DNA of 5,994 nucleotides. It comes from Synergistota bacterium. Its GTDB lineage: Bacteria > Synergistota > JAGHAJ01. The notes beneath the pieces are model-generated. The model had not been told where the DNA came from. It saw nothing but the letters and a program-made list of their open reading frames with translations, and did not search any database. Positions 1 through 5,967 of the stretch are shown piece by piece. How positions within the stretch are numbered: position 1 is the stretch's first letter; the number at the start of each line of letters is the position of its first letter. Both the position numbers and the translations under genes were made by a program. Where the stretch lies: positions 1-5,994 of the forward strand of contig JAGHAJ010000189.1 in assembly GCA_021161545.1 (NCBI GenBank), read 5' to 3'.

Positions 1-449
1 ACGAAGACAAAGATCCCGTACTTATTGGTATATTGAAGGGAGCAATACCCTTCATGGCAGATCTATTAAAGAACATACACGTGCCTGTAAGAATCGATTT
101 CATGGCAGTATCGAGCTATGGCAATTCCACAGAAAGTACTGGTAATGTAAAGATATTAAAAGACCTTGACAAACCCATAAGGTCTCAAAACATAATAATT
201 GTGGAAGATATCATAGATACCGGATTCACTATAGACTATTTACTAAAAACACTACGTGTGAGAAAACCCAAAAGTATCAAAGTATGCGCTTTGCTCAGCA
301 AACCCGAAAGAAGAATCATAAAAGTTCCCATCGATTATAAAGGATTCGATATACCGAATAAATTCGTCATAGGATATGGATTGGATTACGCTGAACACTA
401 CAGAAATTTACCATACATAGCAGTACTCAAACCAGAGGTATATGAGTAA
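1..449 (+). CDS. hpt: Hypoxanthine phosphoribosyltransferase, 5'-truncated by window edge
   Basis: This cytoplasmic purine-salvage enzyme transfers the phosphoribosyl group of PRPP to hypoxanthine or guanine, giving IMP or GMP. The reading frame is open from base 3 to the TAA at 447-449, giving 148 residues. The family is usually about 170-185 residues, so roughly 30 N-terminal residues lie outside the window. Numbered from base 3, visible motifs are the LIGILKG loop with the PRPP-contacting LKG (about residues 7-13), [13 protein letters not shown], the PRPP-binding signature VEDIIDTG (67-74) with its acidic pair E68/D69, and the family's C-terminal block with [19 protein letters not shown] and [11 protein letters not shown] at 33 is not the start, because clear HPRT homology continues upstream of it. 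The last 23 bases overlap the end of the convergent hydrogenase protease gene. No break or unusual residue is seen. The assignment is firm; substrate preference between hypoxanthine and guanine cannot be read from sequence. Confidence 0.95.
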
Positions 450-879
450 TAGCATCCATTCCCTCCTCTATTATTTCTATCAAGCGGAGGGCTGCATGCT
501 TTACGCTATCCGAAACGCCTTCGCCAATAGAAGTATCCTCTGGTTGGATACCTATCACAATAATCCTATCTATATAAGGCTTAAGGTATTCTATCATGAA
601 CCCTATTGACATAGTGTGCGTAGTCAAAAATAGATTATCTATAGAAGTACTCTGAATCCTCCTTATACTACCTGGTAGAAGTCCCATATCCGCTGCATCG
701 ACGATTACAAGAATGTCAGGTGACTCCCTCTTGAGATAAGAAGTATAGTTTTCTGGAACGGTTTCGCCATTTATCAACACCCATCCATGAAGTCTATCCT
801 TAGCCAGATCTATAACATAGACCCCTACACCATCGTCTCTTCTCACAACACTACCCATACCAAGTAACACTTTCTTCAT
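427..879 (-). CDS. hycI: HycI-type [NiFe]-hydrogenase maturation protease
   Basis: This is a 150-residue endopeptidase of the HyaD/HycI (peptidase M52) family. Such enzymes remove the C-terminal tail of a [NiFe]-hydrogenase large subunit once nickel is inserted, using the bound metal for recognition. The N-terminal [13 protein letters not shown] block (7-19), [12 protein letters not shown] (59-70), TTHTMS (86-91) and GIQPEDTS (110-117) follow E. coli HycI closely. The three residues equivalent to its metal ligands D16, D62 and H90 are present as D16, D61 and H88. Length is normal. This points to a group 4 (Hyc/Ech/Mbh-like) hydrogenase, but no hydrogenase structural gene lies in the window. 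The ATG directly follows the TGA of the upstream membrane-protein gene (TGAATG), with a GGTGA about 8 nt before it inside that gene, so translational coupling is likely. It is the last gene of the minus-strand series and ends inside hpt. The family call is strong; the exact hydrogenase partner is inferred. Confidence 0.92.
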
Positions 880-1365
880 TCAGAGCTTCACCGCCTTAAT
901 CAGTACGTAAACAGCATATACAGCAAGAAATATTACAGCAAACGGAGCAATAAAGCGTACATAAAAAATAATTCCTCCTATCCCCCTAGCAAAAAAGAAC
1001 GGAAAACCAACAAAATGCCTTCCATGACCATGCATGTACCAGTGGTAAAATTTAAACGGATTCATCCCACACCGGTAAAAATGGCCAACGGAGGGGACAA
1101 AAAAATACATCAGCAGAACAATCCCAACAATCGCACCCACAACTATTAAAAGGGTAGTTTTATACTTTCTCTTTCTGCTGTATAAGATATTCTTCCAGTC
1201 AAATTGTACATTTCTGGTATCCATTTTCTTAAACGCTTTGTATACTATATAATCTTCCCATACATCAGGATATCTCTTCAAGAGCTCCTCCAACTCCGGT
1301 GAAACCTCCTTTATATCCCCACGGATTATTCTATCAAGTAGCTCTCTTGCCCCTTTTTCATCCAT
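880..1365 (-). CDS. Membrane protein with His-rich external loop, candidate anti-sigma or metal-sensor protein
   Basis: No family was recognised for this 161-residue protein. Residues 1-60 are charged and probably helical (cytoplasmic). A basic stretch RKRKYK (64-69) precedes the first membrane helix (about 71-90), and a second helix spans about 138-157, ending in a short Lys-containing tail. The positive-inside rule puts both ends in the cytoplasm and the 91-131 loop outside. That loop is aromatic and His-rich: H95, C99, H108, H112, H114 and H117, including the run YHWYMHGHGRHF, which could bind a transition metal. The start is fixed by GAGGTGA (1372-1378), 6 nt before the ATG and overlapping the TGA of the sigma gene. 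Position directly after an ECF-type sigma gene is typical of anti-sigma factors, so that role is inferred. However, the HxxxCxxC motif of zinc-binding anti-sigma domains is absent. It could instead be an unrelated small membrane protein. The next gene, a hydrogenase protease, begins right after its stop. Confidence 0.7.
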   Translation of the reverse strand: MDEKGARELLDRIIRGDIKEVSPELEELLKRYPDVWEDYIVYKAFKKMDTRNVQFDWKNILYSRKRKYKTTLLIVVGAIVGIVLLMYFFVPSVGHFYRCGMNPFKFYHWYMHGHGRHFVGFPFFFARGIGGIIFYVRFIAPFAVIFLAVYAVYVLIKAVKL

Positions 1366-1376
1366 GACATTTCACC

Positions 1377-1946
1377 TCAAGAAAGCTTAGAAAATAGCTT
1401 CTTTTTAATCCTACTAACTTTCTGCCTCGCATTTACCTCGCTCATTCCCAGCTCCTTTGATATCTCTGTATAAGAGAGACCATCCACATAGCGTAATGTG
1501 ACAATAACTCTCTCCTCAGGAGAAAGATGGGATAATATTTCACTAAGGTCTTCTTCGTCTATAAGCATGCTTTCAAACCTATCATCAACCACCTCATACC
1601 CCTTTTCTTCTAAATCTGTCAAGCTGACATCCTTCTTACCCTTCTTACGATACTTATCTATAAAGAAATTGGTAACCATCTTTCTAAGCCACGGCTTGAA
1701 CCTATCTACTTTTTGCTTCTTTTTTGCAAGCATATAAAGCTTCCACACGCTTTCTTGGTATAGGTCTTCTGCATCCTCTACATGAGATGTCAAATAAACA
1801 CACAATCTCATTAAGTAAGAGTTATATCGCAACATAAGGAGCTCAAACGCCTCATCGCTCTTATAAGATATGGCAAATAATTCTTCGTCAGAATGCCCAT
1901 AAAGTTTGCTCTTCATTAAGCCTTGTAATCTCCAAGATAACTCCAT
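1377..1946 (-). CDS. ECF-like RNA polymerase sigma-70 family factor
   Basis: This is a 189-residue alternative sigma factor with the two-domain (sigma2-sigma4) build of the ECF group. It would direct core RNA polymerase to a small set of promoters. Region 2 covers about residues 33-102: the core-binding segment VEDAEDLYQESVWKLY (56-71) and the -10-contacting segment KPWLRKMVTNFFIDKYRKK (84-102). A charged linker follows. Region 4 covers about 134-187, with LSPEERVIVTLRYVDGLSY (141-159) and the helix-turn-helix GLSYTEISKELGMSEVNARQ (156-175), which would read the -35 element. Regions 1 and 3 are absent. The ATG at 1946 has GGGGAG (1956-1961) 9 nt upstream; an in-frame Met at residue 11 is a less likely start. 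The gene follows a metal-ABC permease after the longest gap of the series (62 bp), and its stop overlaps the ribosome-binding site of the His-rich membrane protein, so the two are coupled. Family identity is firm; subgroup and target promoters are unknown. Confidence 0.9.
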   Translation of the reverse strand: MELSWRLQGLMKSKLYGHSDEELFAISYKSDEAFELLMLRYNSYLMRLCVYLTSHVEDAEDLYQESVWKLYMLAKKKQKVDRFKPWLRKMVTNFFIDKYRKKGKKDVSLTDLEEKGYEVVDDRFESMLIDEEDLSEILSHLSPEERVIVTLRYVDGLSYTEISKELGMSEVNARQKVSRIKKKLFSKLS

Positions 1947-2008: not shown

Positions 2009-2809
2009 TCAAAATATCTTTCTCACTCCAACTACACCAGTAAACAATAGCGCTCCAGTAAGCACAATTGTAGCACCAGAAGGGAGGTCAAAATAATAAG
2101 AGATAAACAGTCCACCAGTAACTATACATTCTGAAAGTAATATACTGTGCAGGACAAAAGAACGAAACGACATAGATATCACCTTTGATATAGAAGGAGG
2201 CATAATAAGGAGAGCACTTACAAGTACAACACCAAGAAGTTTCACACCCACAATTATAGACACAGAGACAATAATAGTAAAAAGCAACTCCAAGAAGTCA
2301 ACTCTTATTCCACTAACAATAGCTATATCTCTATGAAGGCTCAGAAGTGTCAAATGCCTGTAAAATAAAACCAAAAATCCAGTAGATATAGCAGAAATAA
2401 GCAGAATGATCCACATGTCTGACCAACCTACAGAGAGTATACTTCCAAACAGATAGGCAATAAGCTCTGGTTGGTAACCTTGCATCTTACTTATGATAAC
2501 TATCCCGACCGCCATGCCTGATGCAAATATAATACCCACTATCGCATCAAAAGAAAGCTTAGTGTTTCTTTCCAATAAATAGACAGCTACCGACAGGAAT
2601 ACCCCAAAAATCACTGCGAAGATAATTGGATTAATAGAAAATGCTATACCTATCGCAATACTACCCAAAGAGGCATGAGCCATACCATCTCCCAAGAAAG
2701 ACATCTTCCGTAAAGTTACATATACTCCTAAAAAAGCGAGGGCTACTGCCAACGCCAATCCAGATATAAAGGCCCTTTGCATAAATGGGAGAGAGAATAT
2801 ATCAAGCAT
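2009..2809 (-). CDS. Metal ABC transporter permease (ABC-3 family, ZnuB/MntB-like)
   Basis: This inner-membrane permease belongs to the cluster 9 zinc/manganese/iron importers. It forms the translocation channel and pairs with the ATPase encoded just upstream. From the ATG at 2809 it is 266 residues, usual for the family, and almost entirely hydrophobic with about 8-9 helices. Family landmarks are MLDIFSLPFMQRA (1-13), SFLGDGMAHASLG (37-49) with H45, AYLFGSILSVGWSD (118-131), VSALLIMPPSIS (197-208) and DLPSGATIVL (241-250). The ALLI-PAATA segment common in ZnuB-type permeases reads LIMPPSIS here. A GTG at 2818 is in frame, but GAAGGTG (2816-2822) runs over it and lies 6 nt before the ATG, and the family's usual N-terminus begins at that ATG, so the ATG is preferred. 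Zn, Mn and Fe cannot be separated by sequence. No substrate-binding protein is encoded in the window. Confidence 0.92.
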   Translation of the reverse strand: MLDIFSLPFMQRAFISGLALAVALAFLGVYVTLRKMSFLGDGMAHASLGSIAIGIAFSINPIIFAVIFGVFLSVAVYLLERNTKLSFDAIVGIIFASGMAVGIVIISKMQGYQPELIAYLFGSILSVGWSDMWIILLISAISTGFLVLFYRHLTLLSLHRDIAIVSGIRVDFLELLFTIIVSVSIIVGVKLLGVVLVSALLIMPPSISKVISMSFRSFVLHSILLSECIVTGGLFISYYFDLPSGATIVLTGALLFTGVVGVRKIF

Positions 2810-2815
2810 CGCTAT

Positions 2816-2822
2816 CACCTTC
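2816..2822 (-). promoter_or_regulatory. Ribosome-binding site that sets the permease start
   Basis: The minus strand reads GAAGGTG, followed by 6 nt and the ATG at 2809-2807. The site covers the alternative GTG codon at 2818-2816, which argues against initiation there. It touches the TAG stop of the upstream ATPase gene (2824-2822), so translation of the two subunits is probably coupled. Confidence 0.7.
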
Positions 2823-3532
2823 TACTCTCTGTGTTCAAAAAGCGTAACACTGTCTCCATAAAGAGATCTTATAAGCTGAGGAGTAAGTTTATCATGAGGG
2901 TGCCCATGACAATGCAGCGTTCTGCTTATGCAGATAACTCTATTGGAAAACTTGTAAACCACATCTACCTCATGGCTAACCATAACTATGGTAATATCCA
3001 TACTTTTCTTCATGGACAGAAGCATCTGATAGAACGCATTTCTACCTGCAATGTCTATGCCACCTACAGGTTCATCCATAAAGAGAATACGAGGATAATT
3101 TATCATGGCACGAGCTATAAGAATCCTCTGAAGTTGACCTCCTGATAGGTTTCCCATCAACTTCCTACAATGTCCTCCCATATCAACCATTTCAAGGACC
3201 TTCTCTATCCTATCACCTTTAGTATCATTCCACAAAGAAAAAGAAAGAAACTCCTCCACCGTGAGAGGAAAGGTTCTGTCAAACTCAAATCTCTGAGGAA
3301 CATACCCACAAAACTCCCTCGCATCTGAGATGCTCTTGCCAAATATCCTTATTTCCCCACTCTTTATAGGAACTAAACCAAGTATCGCCTTCAACAATGT
3401 AGTTTTACCTGCTCCATTTGGCCCTATGATAGTAGCAAAATCACCTTCTTCTATATCAAAGGTGACATGACTCAATATTGATTCCTTCTCAATATCTACA
3501 TTTAAGTCCACCACTTCCACCGCTTTTGTCAT
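2822..3532 (-). CDS. Metal ABC transporter ATP-binding protein (ZnuC/MntA-like)
   Basis: This 236-residue cytoplasmic ATPase would power the neighbouring ABC-3 permease in divalent-metal uptake. All nucleotide-binding elements are intact: Walker A GPNGAGKTT (37-45), Q-loop Q80 in YVPQR, signature LSGGQ (129-133), Walker B ILFMDEP (149-155) with catalytic E154, D-loop GGID (157-160) and switch H187 in VSHE. The arrangement VPQRFEFDRTFPLTVEEF (78-95) and the C-terminal CHGHPHDKL and LYGDSVTLFEH are typical of the zinc/manganese cluster rather than other ABC families. A small His/Cys cluster, HCHGHPH (207-213), extends the family's usual CHG motif. The ATG is preceded by GGGGAG 5 nt upstream. 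The permease ATG is 12 nt beyond this gene's stop, and the DUF1015 gene ends 21 bp upstream, so all are likely cotranscribed. The family is firm; the metal is not determined. Confidence 0.93.
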   Translation of the reverse strand: MTKAVEVVDLNVDIEKESILSHVTFDIEEGDFATIIGPNGAGKTTLLKAILGLVPIKSGEIRIFGKSISDAREFCGYVPQRFEFDRTFPLTVEEFLSFSLWNDTKGDRIEKVLEMVDMGGHCRKLMGNLSGGQLQRILIARAMINYPRILFMDEPVGGIDIAGRNAFYQMLLSMKKSMDITIVMVSHEVDVVYKFSNRVICISRTLHCHGHPHDKLTPQLIRSLYGDSVTLFEHRE

Positions 3533-3553: not shown

Positions 3554-4819
3554 TTACCCCACATATTGCTCAACCAAACCTGTCAGCATCTTCGGGTAAA
3601 AATATGTACTCTTTTGAGGCAACAACTCCCCATTGAGAGATATATCTCTAACCTGCTCTTTTCTCACGGGATTTAAGAAGAAACACATCTCATACTCTCC
3701 ACTTTCTACCATACGATTGGCTTCAACGAAAGAGTCTGTATACGCAATGTTCCCAGAGTTCTTTATCTGCTCCACACTCATGCCAAGCAGCGGTTCCATA
3801 ATCAGATTTTGAAGTATATTTACATCAAGCTGCTTCCACATGTCTGAATGCCCATCACCTCCAACACTTAAAGCATCCTCTATATTACGCAATTCAAGGT
3901 AATAATACCCTATACCCCTGCCAAATATTCCTATTACTCCCTTCTTCCCAGACTTCATTGCATCAGTAAGCATTTTCCTAAGTTTCTCCAAAGTTTCCAC
4001 CCTTACTATCGTAAATTGCGCATTAAGTGCAGTTAGCTCAGGGATAGCTATACCTTTAATAACCCTATGAATAGGAAATATCTGTAAACCAGGGTCCTGA
4101 AAAGCAACGAGAGCCACCATTCTGTAATTCCATGGTGCATCATCTCTGGAGCCATTCAGGGTATCCATATACTTCTTATACCTCAAGGCTGTCTCATACC
4201 TATGATGTCCATCAGCTATCACAAACTTCATATTTTCTGTAATATTAGCTATCTTCTCATGAATATTTCTATCCCTAACAACCCAGAATGTATGAGTTAC
4301 ACCATCATCATCCATAAACGAAAACTCTGGAGGTTCTTCATATGCAGGAGAAAGCACACATCCAACATCATTGTCTTTATCATCATAGAGCATAAATATC
4401 TGCCCCCAATGTGCATTAGTGGACATAGTCAGTTTAAAGCGATCTTCTTTTGGACCAGAAAGGGTATACTCATGTGGAAAGACAACCCTTTTGCCAAACC
4501 CAGATAGCTTCAGAAGTGCTATAAAACTCCTCCTTCTGAACTCAGCGCCCTGAACCGAGAAGAGTTGCTCGTACAAATATATAGCTGGCTTCTCTTCCAC
4601 ACTGAGAACACCCGTTCTCATCCACTCCATTAGATACCTTCCAGCAGATGCGTATCTATCTTCCTCTCTATTCAATATTATCCTCACAATATTATAAGGA
4701 CTCTTCTTATAATAGAGATCTTGCATTTCAGGTGTGATAATATCGTATGGTTGGGATACAACATCTTTAATATCTACCTTACTTATATCGTACCTCAACC
4801 CTCTAAAAGGAAAAATCAT
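3554..4819 (-). CDS. DUF1015 family protein (COG4198) with ADGHHRYE motif
   Basis: This is a 421-residue soluble protein of the DUF1015 family, which I recognise from the N-terminal FPFRGLRYD (3-11), QPYDIITPE (23-31) and PYNIVRIIL (41-49), and above all the motif IADGHHRYETALRY (201-214). Other conserved-looking segments are FPHEYTLSGPKEDR (114-127), MSTNAHWGQI (132-141) and FPIHRVIKG (248-256). Length is normal for the family and no signal peptide or membrane helix is seen. The family has no function that I can state with certainty. The DGHHR core resembles the phosphate-binding motif of ParB/sulfiredoxin-fold proteins, a fold that includes archaeal free-serine kinase, so a nucleotide- or phosphoserine-related activity is a reasonable inference only. 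The ATG lies 2 nt after the TAA of the aminotransferase gene, and its GAGGGG site (4828-4833) is inside that gene's last codons, so the two are translationally coupled and probably act in the same pathway. Confidence 0.85.
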   Translation of the reverse strand: MIFPFRGLRYDISKVDIKDVVSQPYDIITPEMQDLYYKKSPYNIVRIILNREEDRYASAGRYLMEWMRTGVLSVEEKPAIYLYEQLFSVQGAEFRRRSFIALLKLSGFGKRVVFPHEYTLSGPKEDRFKLTMSTNAHWGQIFMLYDDKDNDVGCVLSPAYEEPPEFSFMDDDGVTHTFWVVRDRNIHEKIANITENMKFVIADGHHRYETALRYKKYMDTLNGSRDDAPWNYRMVALVAFQDPGLQIFPIHRVIKGIAIPELTALNAQFTIVRVETLEKLRKMLTDAMKSGKKGVIGIFGRGIGYYYLELRNIEDALSVGGDGHSDMWKQLDVNILQNLIMEPLLGMSVEQIKNSGNIAYTDSFVEANRMVESGEYEMCFFLNPVRKEQVRDISLNGELLPQKSTYFYPKMLTGLVEQYVG

Positions 4820-4821
4820 TC

Positions 4822-5967
4822 TTATTTCCCCTCTCTAAGCACGAGTTCAGCAGCTCTCACTCCACTACCAAGCTCCACAGGATATCCCTCATCTTTAAGT
4901 GCCATCTCTAAAGCAGAGATAGCAACTATCACATCAAAGGCATAAGCATATCCAAGATGGGCAATTCTCAATATTTTACCTTTAAGTTTACCTTGCCCCC
5001 CGCTAATCGTAACCTTATATTTATCTTTTATCCTTGAAAGTAGCTTCTCCCCATCTATTCCCTCTGGCACCTTAACAGCGGTACACACATTTCCTGGATT
5101 AGAAGAAAACAACTCAAGGCCCACTCCTTTCACAGCAGCCCTAGTTGCGCTTGCAAGCAAGGCATGCCTACTAATTACATTATCTATACCCTCCTCTAAT
5201 ATCATAGATAAAGACTCCTTAAGCTGAACAACAAGAGAAACAGCAGGAGTAAAAGGCGTCGTGTTAGAAAGATAAGCATCCTTATAACCAGATACAGAAA
5301 AGTAGTATGAGGGCAGATTGCTCTTTTCAACCAAACCGAATGCCTTTTTACTAAAAGCTACAAAAGATAAACCTGGTGGTAGCATAAATGCCTTTTGCGA
5401 ACTCGCAACAACAATATCCACACCCCAACTATCCATCTGTAAGTCACAGGCCGCTATTCCAGAAACGGCATCAACTACAAGTATTGCACCGCTATGCCGC
5501 ACATACTTAGCAATCCTCTCTATATCGTAGGTCGTACCTGTGGACGTCTCAAATAGCGTTGTAAACACAGCTTTTATATCAGGATGTTCTTCGAGATACT
5601 CACCTATTTTTTCTGGAATAGGTGCACTACCCCATTCCACTTCATACACAACAGCATCAAGCCCATAAGCCTTCGCTATCTGAAGCCACCGCTCTCCAAA
5701 CTTTCCACCAACCACTACAAGCACTCTATCACCATTAGAACACGTATTAACAAGTGCAAACTCCATTGCACCTGTTCCAGAAGCTGCAAGTATATAAACA
5801 GGATTTCTGGTTTTGAAAATTTTCTTCAAATCATCTGAAACTGACCATAAAATCTGAGAAAAATCGGGTGTTCTATGATGTATTATCGGTTTTGCAGCCT
5901 CCAGAAGAACACTTTCCGGAACAGCAGTTGGACCCGGAGCCATAAGATAATGCTTACCGAACAGCAA
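4822..5967 (-). CDS. Class V PLP aminotransferase (alanine-glyoxylate / serine-pyruvate / phosphoserine type)
   Basis: This 381-residue fold-type I PLP enzyme of the class V aminotransferase group moves an amino group between small amino acids and 2-oxo acids. Visible elements are the N-terminal substrate-binding MAPGPTAVPE (9-18), HHRTPDF (30-36), the phosphate loop ASGTGAME (62-69), the E140-TSTG turn, VVDAVSGIAA (164-173) with D166 to pair with the PLP pyridine nitrogen, SSQKAFMLPPGL (189-200) with Schiff-base lysine K192, and GGQGKLKGKILRIAHLGY (323-340) with carboxylate-binding R334. Length is normal. The start is TTG at 5967: GGAGGTG lies 8 nt upstream, an in-frame TAG two codons before excludes a longer protein, and the next Met is residue 9. 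Coupling to the DUF1015 gene suggests serine biosynthesis (a phosphoserine aminotransferase substitute) or glyoxylate/serine transamination. Enzymes of this group overlap in substrate, so the family is firm but the substrate open. Confidence 0.9.
   Translation of the reverse strand: MLFGKHYLMAPGPTAVPESVLLEAAKPIIHHRTPDFSQILWSVSDDLKKIFKTRNPVYILAASGTGAMEFALVNTCSNGDRVLVVVGGKFGERWLQIAKAYGLDAVVYEVEWGSAPIPEKIGEYLEEHPDIKAVFTTLFETSTGTTYDIERIAKYVRHSGAILVVDAVSGIAACDLQMDSWGVDIVVASSQKAFMLPPGLSFVAFSKKAFGLVEKSNLPSYYFSVSGYKDAYLSNTTPFTPAVSLVVQLKESLSMILEEGIDNVISRHALLASATRAAVKGVGLELFSSNPGNVCTAVKVPEGIDGEKLLSRIKDKYKVTISGGQGKLKGKILRIAHLGYAYAFDVIVAISALEMALKDEGYPVELGSGVRAAELVLREGK

Follow-up and report, generated by a model that had tools for sequence, protein, structure and literature searches.

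What does the small membrane protein encoded directly behind an ECF-type sigma factor gene do, and does it respond to a metal? The locus lies on a 5,994-base contig, which is the whole stretch of DNA that we analysed (the window), from a draft assembly of 1.58 Mb in 288 contigs that is 82% complete. The sequence-only reading had proposed a sigma/anti-sigma pair in which a histidine-rich outside loop binds a transition metal and the sigma factor controls metal supply and hydrogenase maturation. The pair is of an ordinary sigma/anti-sigma kind, from a rare lineage: with a probability of roughly 0.78, it is an ECF sigma factor and a membrane-anchored, non-zinc anti-sigma factor that are encoded together. 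The metal reading is weakly supported.

The locus and its sigma factor

All genes of the window are on the minus strand except the leftmost one. The features, from right to left, are:

4822-5967, minus strand: class V aminotransferase
3554-4819, minus strand: DUF1015 protein
2822-3532, minus strand: ZnuC-like ATPase (PF00005, E 6e-29; the top NCBIfam model is ZnuC, under its cut-off)
2009-2818, minus strand: ABC-3 (ZnuB-like) permease (PF00950, E 4e-65), 62 bases upstream of the sigma factor gene
1377-1946, minus strand: ECF-type sigma factor with regions 2 and 4, 189 amino acids (Sigma70_r2, Sigma70_r4_2 and TIGR02937 above cut-off)
1366-1379, minus strand: sigma stop codon and 11-base gap, with a GAGGTGA ribosome-binding sequence that overlaps the stop
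880-1365, minus strand: membrane protein of 161 amino acids without a named family, the proposed cognate anti-sigma factor (adjoins the sigma factor gene in 5 of 5 genomes; AF2 helices)
1156-1365, minus strand: predicted cytoplasmic anti-sigma domain, residues 1-70 (alignment; AF2 of the domain alone)
973-1095, minus strand: putative extracytoplasmic loop, residues 91-131, with H95, C99, H108, H112, H114 and H117 (hydropathy, alignment)
427-879, minus strand: HycI-type hydrogenase maturation protease (PF01750, 57.2 bits against a cut-off of 23; TIGR00142, 118.4 against 119.1)
3-449, opposite strand: phosphoribosyltransferase, converging on hycI

Our positions for the sigma factor gene and the membrane protein gene agree with those of the sequence-only reading. 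The pair does lie, as had been described, between an importer resembling the Zn/Mn type (ZnuB- and ZnuC-like genes, upstream) and hycI (downstream), all on the same strand. The intergenic gaps are 62 bases before the sigma factor gene, 11 bases between it and the membrane protein gene, and zero before hycI, whose ATG abuts the preceding stop (TGAATG). Judging from the sequence, the minus-strand genes of the window likely form one operon, and the 11-base gap with GAGGTGA over the sigma stop makes translational coupling of the pair plausible. At its other end, hycI overlaps the 3' end of the phosphoribosyltransferase gene by 23 bases (427-449).

The identification of an ECF-like sigma factor is borne out by the Pfam models for Sigma70_r2 (38.2 bits; cut-off 24) and Sigma70_r4_2 (60.5 bits; cut-off 25.7) and by the NCBIfam model for ECF sigma factors, TIGR02937 (91.3 bits; cut-off 42.9). 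The protein has the ECF arrangement, with only sigma-70 regions 2 and 4 in about 190 amino acids. Among the 25 NCBIfam matches listed, none of the narrower sigma models was above its cut-off. The closest relatives with solved structures are SigE, AlgU, and RpoE, while CnrH matches less well. We found no second copy of this sigma factor in the genome (in the 82% complete assembly), which has just three matches to sigma region 2.

The membrane protein as a candidate anti-sigma factor

The sequence-only reading recognised no family for the 161-residue protein, and HMM searches agree: there is no match in Pfam, and the sole match in NCBIfam is noise (E 0.13). It also noted the absence of the zinc-binding anti-sigma motif. 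Indeed, the only cysteine (C99) is outside the N-terminal domain, no histidine precedes residue 95, and the Hx3Cx2C pattern in helices 2-3 that defines the ZAS subtype is missing. The description as a two-helix membrane protein holds in that hydropathy and AF2 support two transmembrane segments; the extent of the second is ambiguous, as the hydrophobic stretch (about 119-157) is long.

We searched for homologues of the membrane protein in 185 genomes of the phylum (184 and the window's own) at E ≤ 0.001. It is present in 5 of these: the window's genome and four from another family, including bacterium GBS-1 (LEKQ01000007) and bacterium 42_11 (LGFB01000041). In all five, the gene is directly after a homologue of the sigma factor gene, on the same strand and in the same order, and no orthologue was found away from a sigma factor gene. 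Apart from the partner gene, the neighbours of the pair all differ between the window and the four relatives. The relatives are distant, with 36-38% identity for the sigma factor and 21-26% for the membrane protein. This strict adjacency supports a sigma/anti-sigma pair. A scan of named genomes with the sigma alignment, which relied on strict peptide patterns (relatives elsewhere are possible), returned only bacterium GBS-1 and bacterium 42_11, plus two weak and unrelated sigma matches.

The predicted structure points the same way. For the full protein, AF2 places helices at residues 3-14, 23-30, 33-50, and 57-89, the fourth continuing into the first transmembrane segment; for the N-terminal domain alone, the helices are at 3-14, 23-30, 33-48, and 57-73. 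The three short helices have a pLDDT of 83-90 and helix 4 a low 57-59, from a shallow input alignment of five rows. The domain is also the more conserved part: in the five-sequence alignment, mean column identity is 61% in the N-terminal domain and 52% over the whole protein, and 9 of the 11 invariant residues fall within the domain (among them P33, W36, E37, Y39, W57, K58, and L61). A class I anti-sigma domain consists of four helices, of which three form a bundle and the fourth follows a linker (PMC7406223). As modelled, the 161-residue protein has this layout, since three short helices, a linker, and a fourth helix that runs into the membrane correspond to the published definition, and this supports the anti-sigma reading. 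Furthermore, helix 3 contains W-E-x-Y, which can be compared to W33-E34-S35-Y36 of RseA (sequence checked against 1or7), where Y36 is a named sigma-contact position (PMC7406223).

Homology to RseA and MucA at the sequence level is suggestive only. The hhalign probability against RseA plus MucA was 0.5%, with equally good results in 3 of 60 column shuffles; profile comparisons with RseA plus MucA and with RsiW, each against column shuffles, were marginal or negative, and pairwise tests were marginal. With the full model or the N-terminal domain alone, Foldseek returned nothing below E 4.7, and its matches were unrelated helical proteins; a VIA fold search likewise gave only unrelated helical matches (Z 2-3). 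A profile search of the PDB gave no anti-sigma match. Nevertheless, the proposed pairing has held up, on the adjacency in five of five genomes and on the predicted four-helix layout: the membrane protein likely acts in the manner of class I anti-sigma factors, which it resembles in layout and gene position, with a membership by sequence that is unproven.

The shared coding of the two genes would cause both proteins to be produced in step. The four helices at the N-terminus (residues about 3-65) would form a cytoplasmic domain that binds regions 4 and 2 of the sigma factor, which would be held at the membrane and out of reach of RNA polymerase. It would then be freed by a signal sensed either within the membrane or outside it, via proteolysis of the anti-sigma factor or a change in the shape of the latter. 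(The window's genome encodes a peptidase M50, a site-2-type protease, as do 14 of 14 control genomes.) Once free, the sigma factor would transcribe its targets, among which may be the genes of the pair itself and hycI, which is coupled to them. Because the outside loop is short in the relatives, the membrane segments or a partner protein probably provide the core input, and the core device would need no outside sensory domain.

The histidine-rich loop and the neighbouring genes

The composition claimed for the loop is exact: all five histidines of the protein (H95, H108, H112, H114, and H117) and its one cysteine lie within 23 residues. Such a cluster arises in 0.12% of shuffles of the protein, and at least 5 histidines in 23 residues are found in just 3 of about 150 long ORFs from the loci that we examined, this one included; because this is one protein picked among many, these figures do not amount to genome-wide significance. 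In the alignment, the region between the transmembrane segments is about 20-25 residues shorter in the four relatives, with 0-2 histidines and without the HxxxHxHxxH pattern. The expected conservation of the loop histidines was thus not seen in any of the four, and no close orthologue with a long loop was found among the 185 genomes of the phylum. We view the long histidine-rich loop as a lineage-specific addition with putative metal binding. Although the distant relatives do not share it, such a loop may nonetheless have a role within the lineage that carries it.

The gene neighbourhood is not conserved either: neither the importer nor hycI adjoins the pair in any of the four relatives. Their hycI genes are on other contigs or far from the pair, and in the two genomes that we read, hycI is beside membrane-bound hydrogenase genes. 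In bacterium 42_11, a complete znuABC operon with the canonical histidines has no adjoining sigma factor gene. In the window's genome, the sole ZnuA-like binding protein that we found (C46:6130-7038, in the incomplete assembly) has M/R and Y at positions where MntC and ZnuA have histidine ligands. The ZnuBC-like importer may therefore be something other than a standard transporter of zinc or manganese, or another binding protein could be missing from the assembly. The ZnuA-like gene shares its contig with the mnh/mbh membrane hydrogenase genes and is upstream of them. The group 4 NiFe hydrogenase operon of this genome is split across contigs C46 and C147, and hycI is outside it, behind the anti-sigma gene instead. 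The large subunit (C147, L061 654-1892) ends in DPCIGCMDR followed by a C-terminal extension, so it is a likely substrate of HycI.

In the relatives, a secreted ASH/HYDIN-type protein is encoded just upstream of the sigma factor. Downstream of the pair are a membrane ORF, sufC, a SufB/D-like gene, an epimerase gene, and a metallo-hydrolase-like gene; sufC and the SufB/D-like gene follow closely and on the same strand in four of four relatives. With SufB of GBS-1 as the query, we found no suf genes in the window's genome (assembly 82% complete).

Several other features of the GBS-1 lineage are worth recording. The secreted protein upstream of the sigma factor has repeated ASH/HYDIN/PapD-like Ig domains (L030 5846-6880, L031 3404-4441, and L033 3203-4579), and it could be a partner of the switch or one of its targets. 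Near the sigma cluster, a cupin-like gene is accompanied by the gene for a small secreted protein with a high content of Gly, Pro, Trp, and Tyr (L030 7314-7874, L031 2399-2965, and L033 2231-2773); the one member that we searched has no Pfam family. The anti-sigma gene apparently starts with CTG in L030 (about 5268) and L031 (about 5021), preceded by GGAGGT or GAAGGTGA, and in L030 there is no in-frame ATG, GTG, or TTG upstream of the CTG. In all four loci (L030, L031, L032, and L033), the membrane ORF, which is read in another frame, shares about 211 bases with the 3' part of the anti-sigma gene. Its TTG start falls at a common place (nucleotides 167-173 of the anti-sigma gene) and is preceded by GGAGG in two genomes and by GGAG in one. 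The overlapping frame is free of stops in all four. Dual coding is not proven, as substitutions within the overlap follow the anti-sigma frame.

How do these observations bear on other explanations of the locus? The membrane protein might not be an anti-sigma factor and might instead be co-transcribed, assisting or sensing for another regulator, which would be in keeping with its lack of a family match or of a significant fold match. But adjacency is strict in five genomes whose neighbourhoods otherwise differ, and the conserved soluble N-terminal domain has a fitting size and predicted helix layout, so we consider this quite unlikely. Another proposal accepts the switch and takes its neighbours as the regulon: the sigma factor would govern metal-cofactor supply (the importer and HycI here, sufC and sufB in the GBS-1 lineage), with input via the membrane or a partner. 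It draws on hycI abutting the anti-sigma gene in the window and on the suf genes that closely follow the pair in all four relatives. However, that genes lie side by side says little about their regulation, epimerase, metallo-hydrolase-like, and secreted ASH-domain genes are part of the cluster in the relatives too, and a single look at the promoter-proximal gene there showed a TATAAT-like -10 rather than an ECF-type motif. From the one genome of the window's lineage and these relatives, no promoter motif specific to the sigma factor emerged. We regard this regulon as doubtful.

The original proposal was that the loop binds a transition metal and that the sigma factor controls metal supply and hydrogenase maturation. 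In a more detailed form, H95/C99 and HxxxHxHxxH would bind nickel, zinc, or copper outside the membrane and thereby release the sigma factor. Five histidines within 23 residues, a ZnuBC-like importer and hycI in the same likely operon, and a group 4 NiFe hydrogenase large subunit whose extension after DPCIGC would need a HycI-like protease all fit this proposal. On the other side, the four relatives lack both the histidine cluster and the metal-related neighbours, their hycI is elsewhere (beside hydrogenase genes in the two genomes that we read), and the only ZnuA-like protein found has M/R and Y in place of histidine ligands. Of the earlier metal-sensing idea, the anti-sigma role of the N-terminus is supported, while the metal part finds no support in the relatives, and we judge a metal sensor of this kind to be unlikely. 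Metal sensing with hydrogenase control, confined to the window's lineage, is a long shot. Its most specific form seems improbable: a single protein would be both sensor and anti-sigma factor, binding metal with the loop between its two transmembrane helices, and would link the supply of metal to the maturation of the NiFe hydrogenase via the hycI gene of its own operon.

Comparison with known systems

The pair of ECF sigma factor and membrane-anchored anti-sigma factor most resembles RpoE/RseA and AlgU/MucA, where an ECF sigma factor gene is also followed by the gene for a membrane anti-sigma factor. The window's sigma factor is closest to these and to SigE among solved structures. Like RseA and MucA, the 161-residue protein has helices 1-4 (predicted here) before the membrane, W-x-x-Y in helix 3, and no Hx3Cx2C. 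In contrast, it has two hydrophobic segments instead of one and no periplasmic RseB-binding domain, no RseB or MucB gene adjoins the pair, and its sequence and fold matches to RseA and MucA are not significant.

The sequence-only reading had pointed to CnrYXH, which shares an ECF sigma factor (CnrH) with a membrane anti-sigma factor, and a possible link to metals. CnrX is a separate periplasmic metal sensor. The comparison fails on anatomy, as no CnrX-like third gene adjoins the window's pair; the neighbours are the ABC permease gene and hycI. Also, the putative metal ligands are not conserved, as none of the four relatives has the histidine cluster, and CnrY is a class II anti-sigma factor with two helices (PMC7406223).

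The pairs of the GBS-1 lineage have a homologous sigma factor and a homologous membrane protein in the same order. They differ from the window's pair in the shorter loop without the histidine cluster, the ASH-domain gene upstream, and the membrane ORF and suf genes downstream. Hence the sigma-holding half appears to be kept while the sensing half varies, with a short loop in one lineage and a long histidine-rich loop in the other. If the long loop does bind a metal, then sensor and anti-sigma factor would be compactly joined in one small protein. In any case, the pair extends a familiar type of switch by a small and rare sigma/anti-sigma lineage, which comes from a branch that is uncultured and probably thermophilic.
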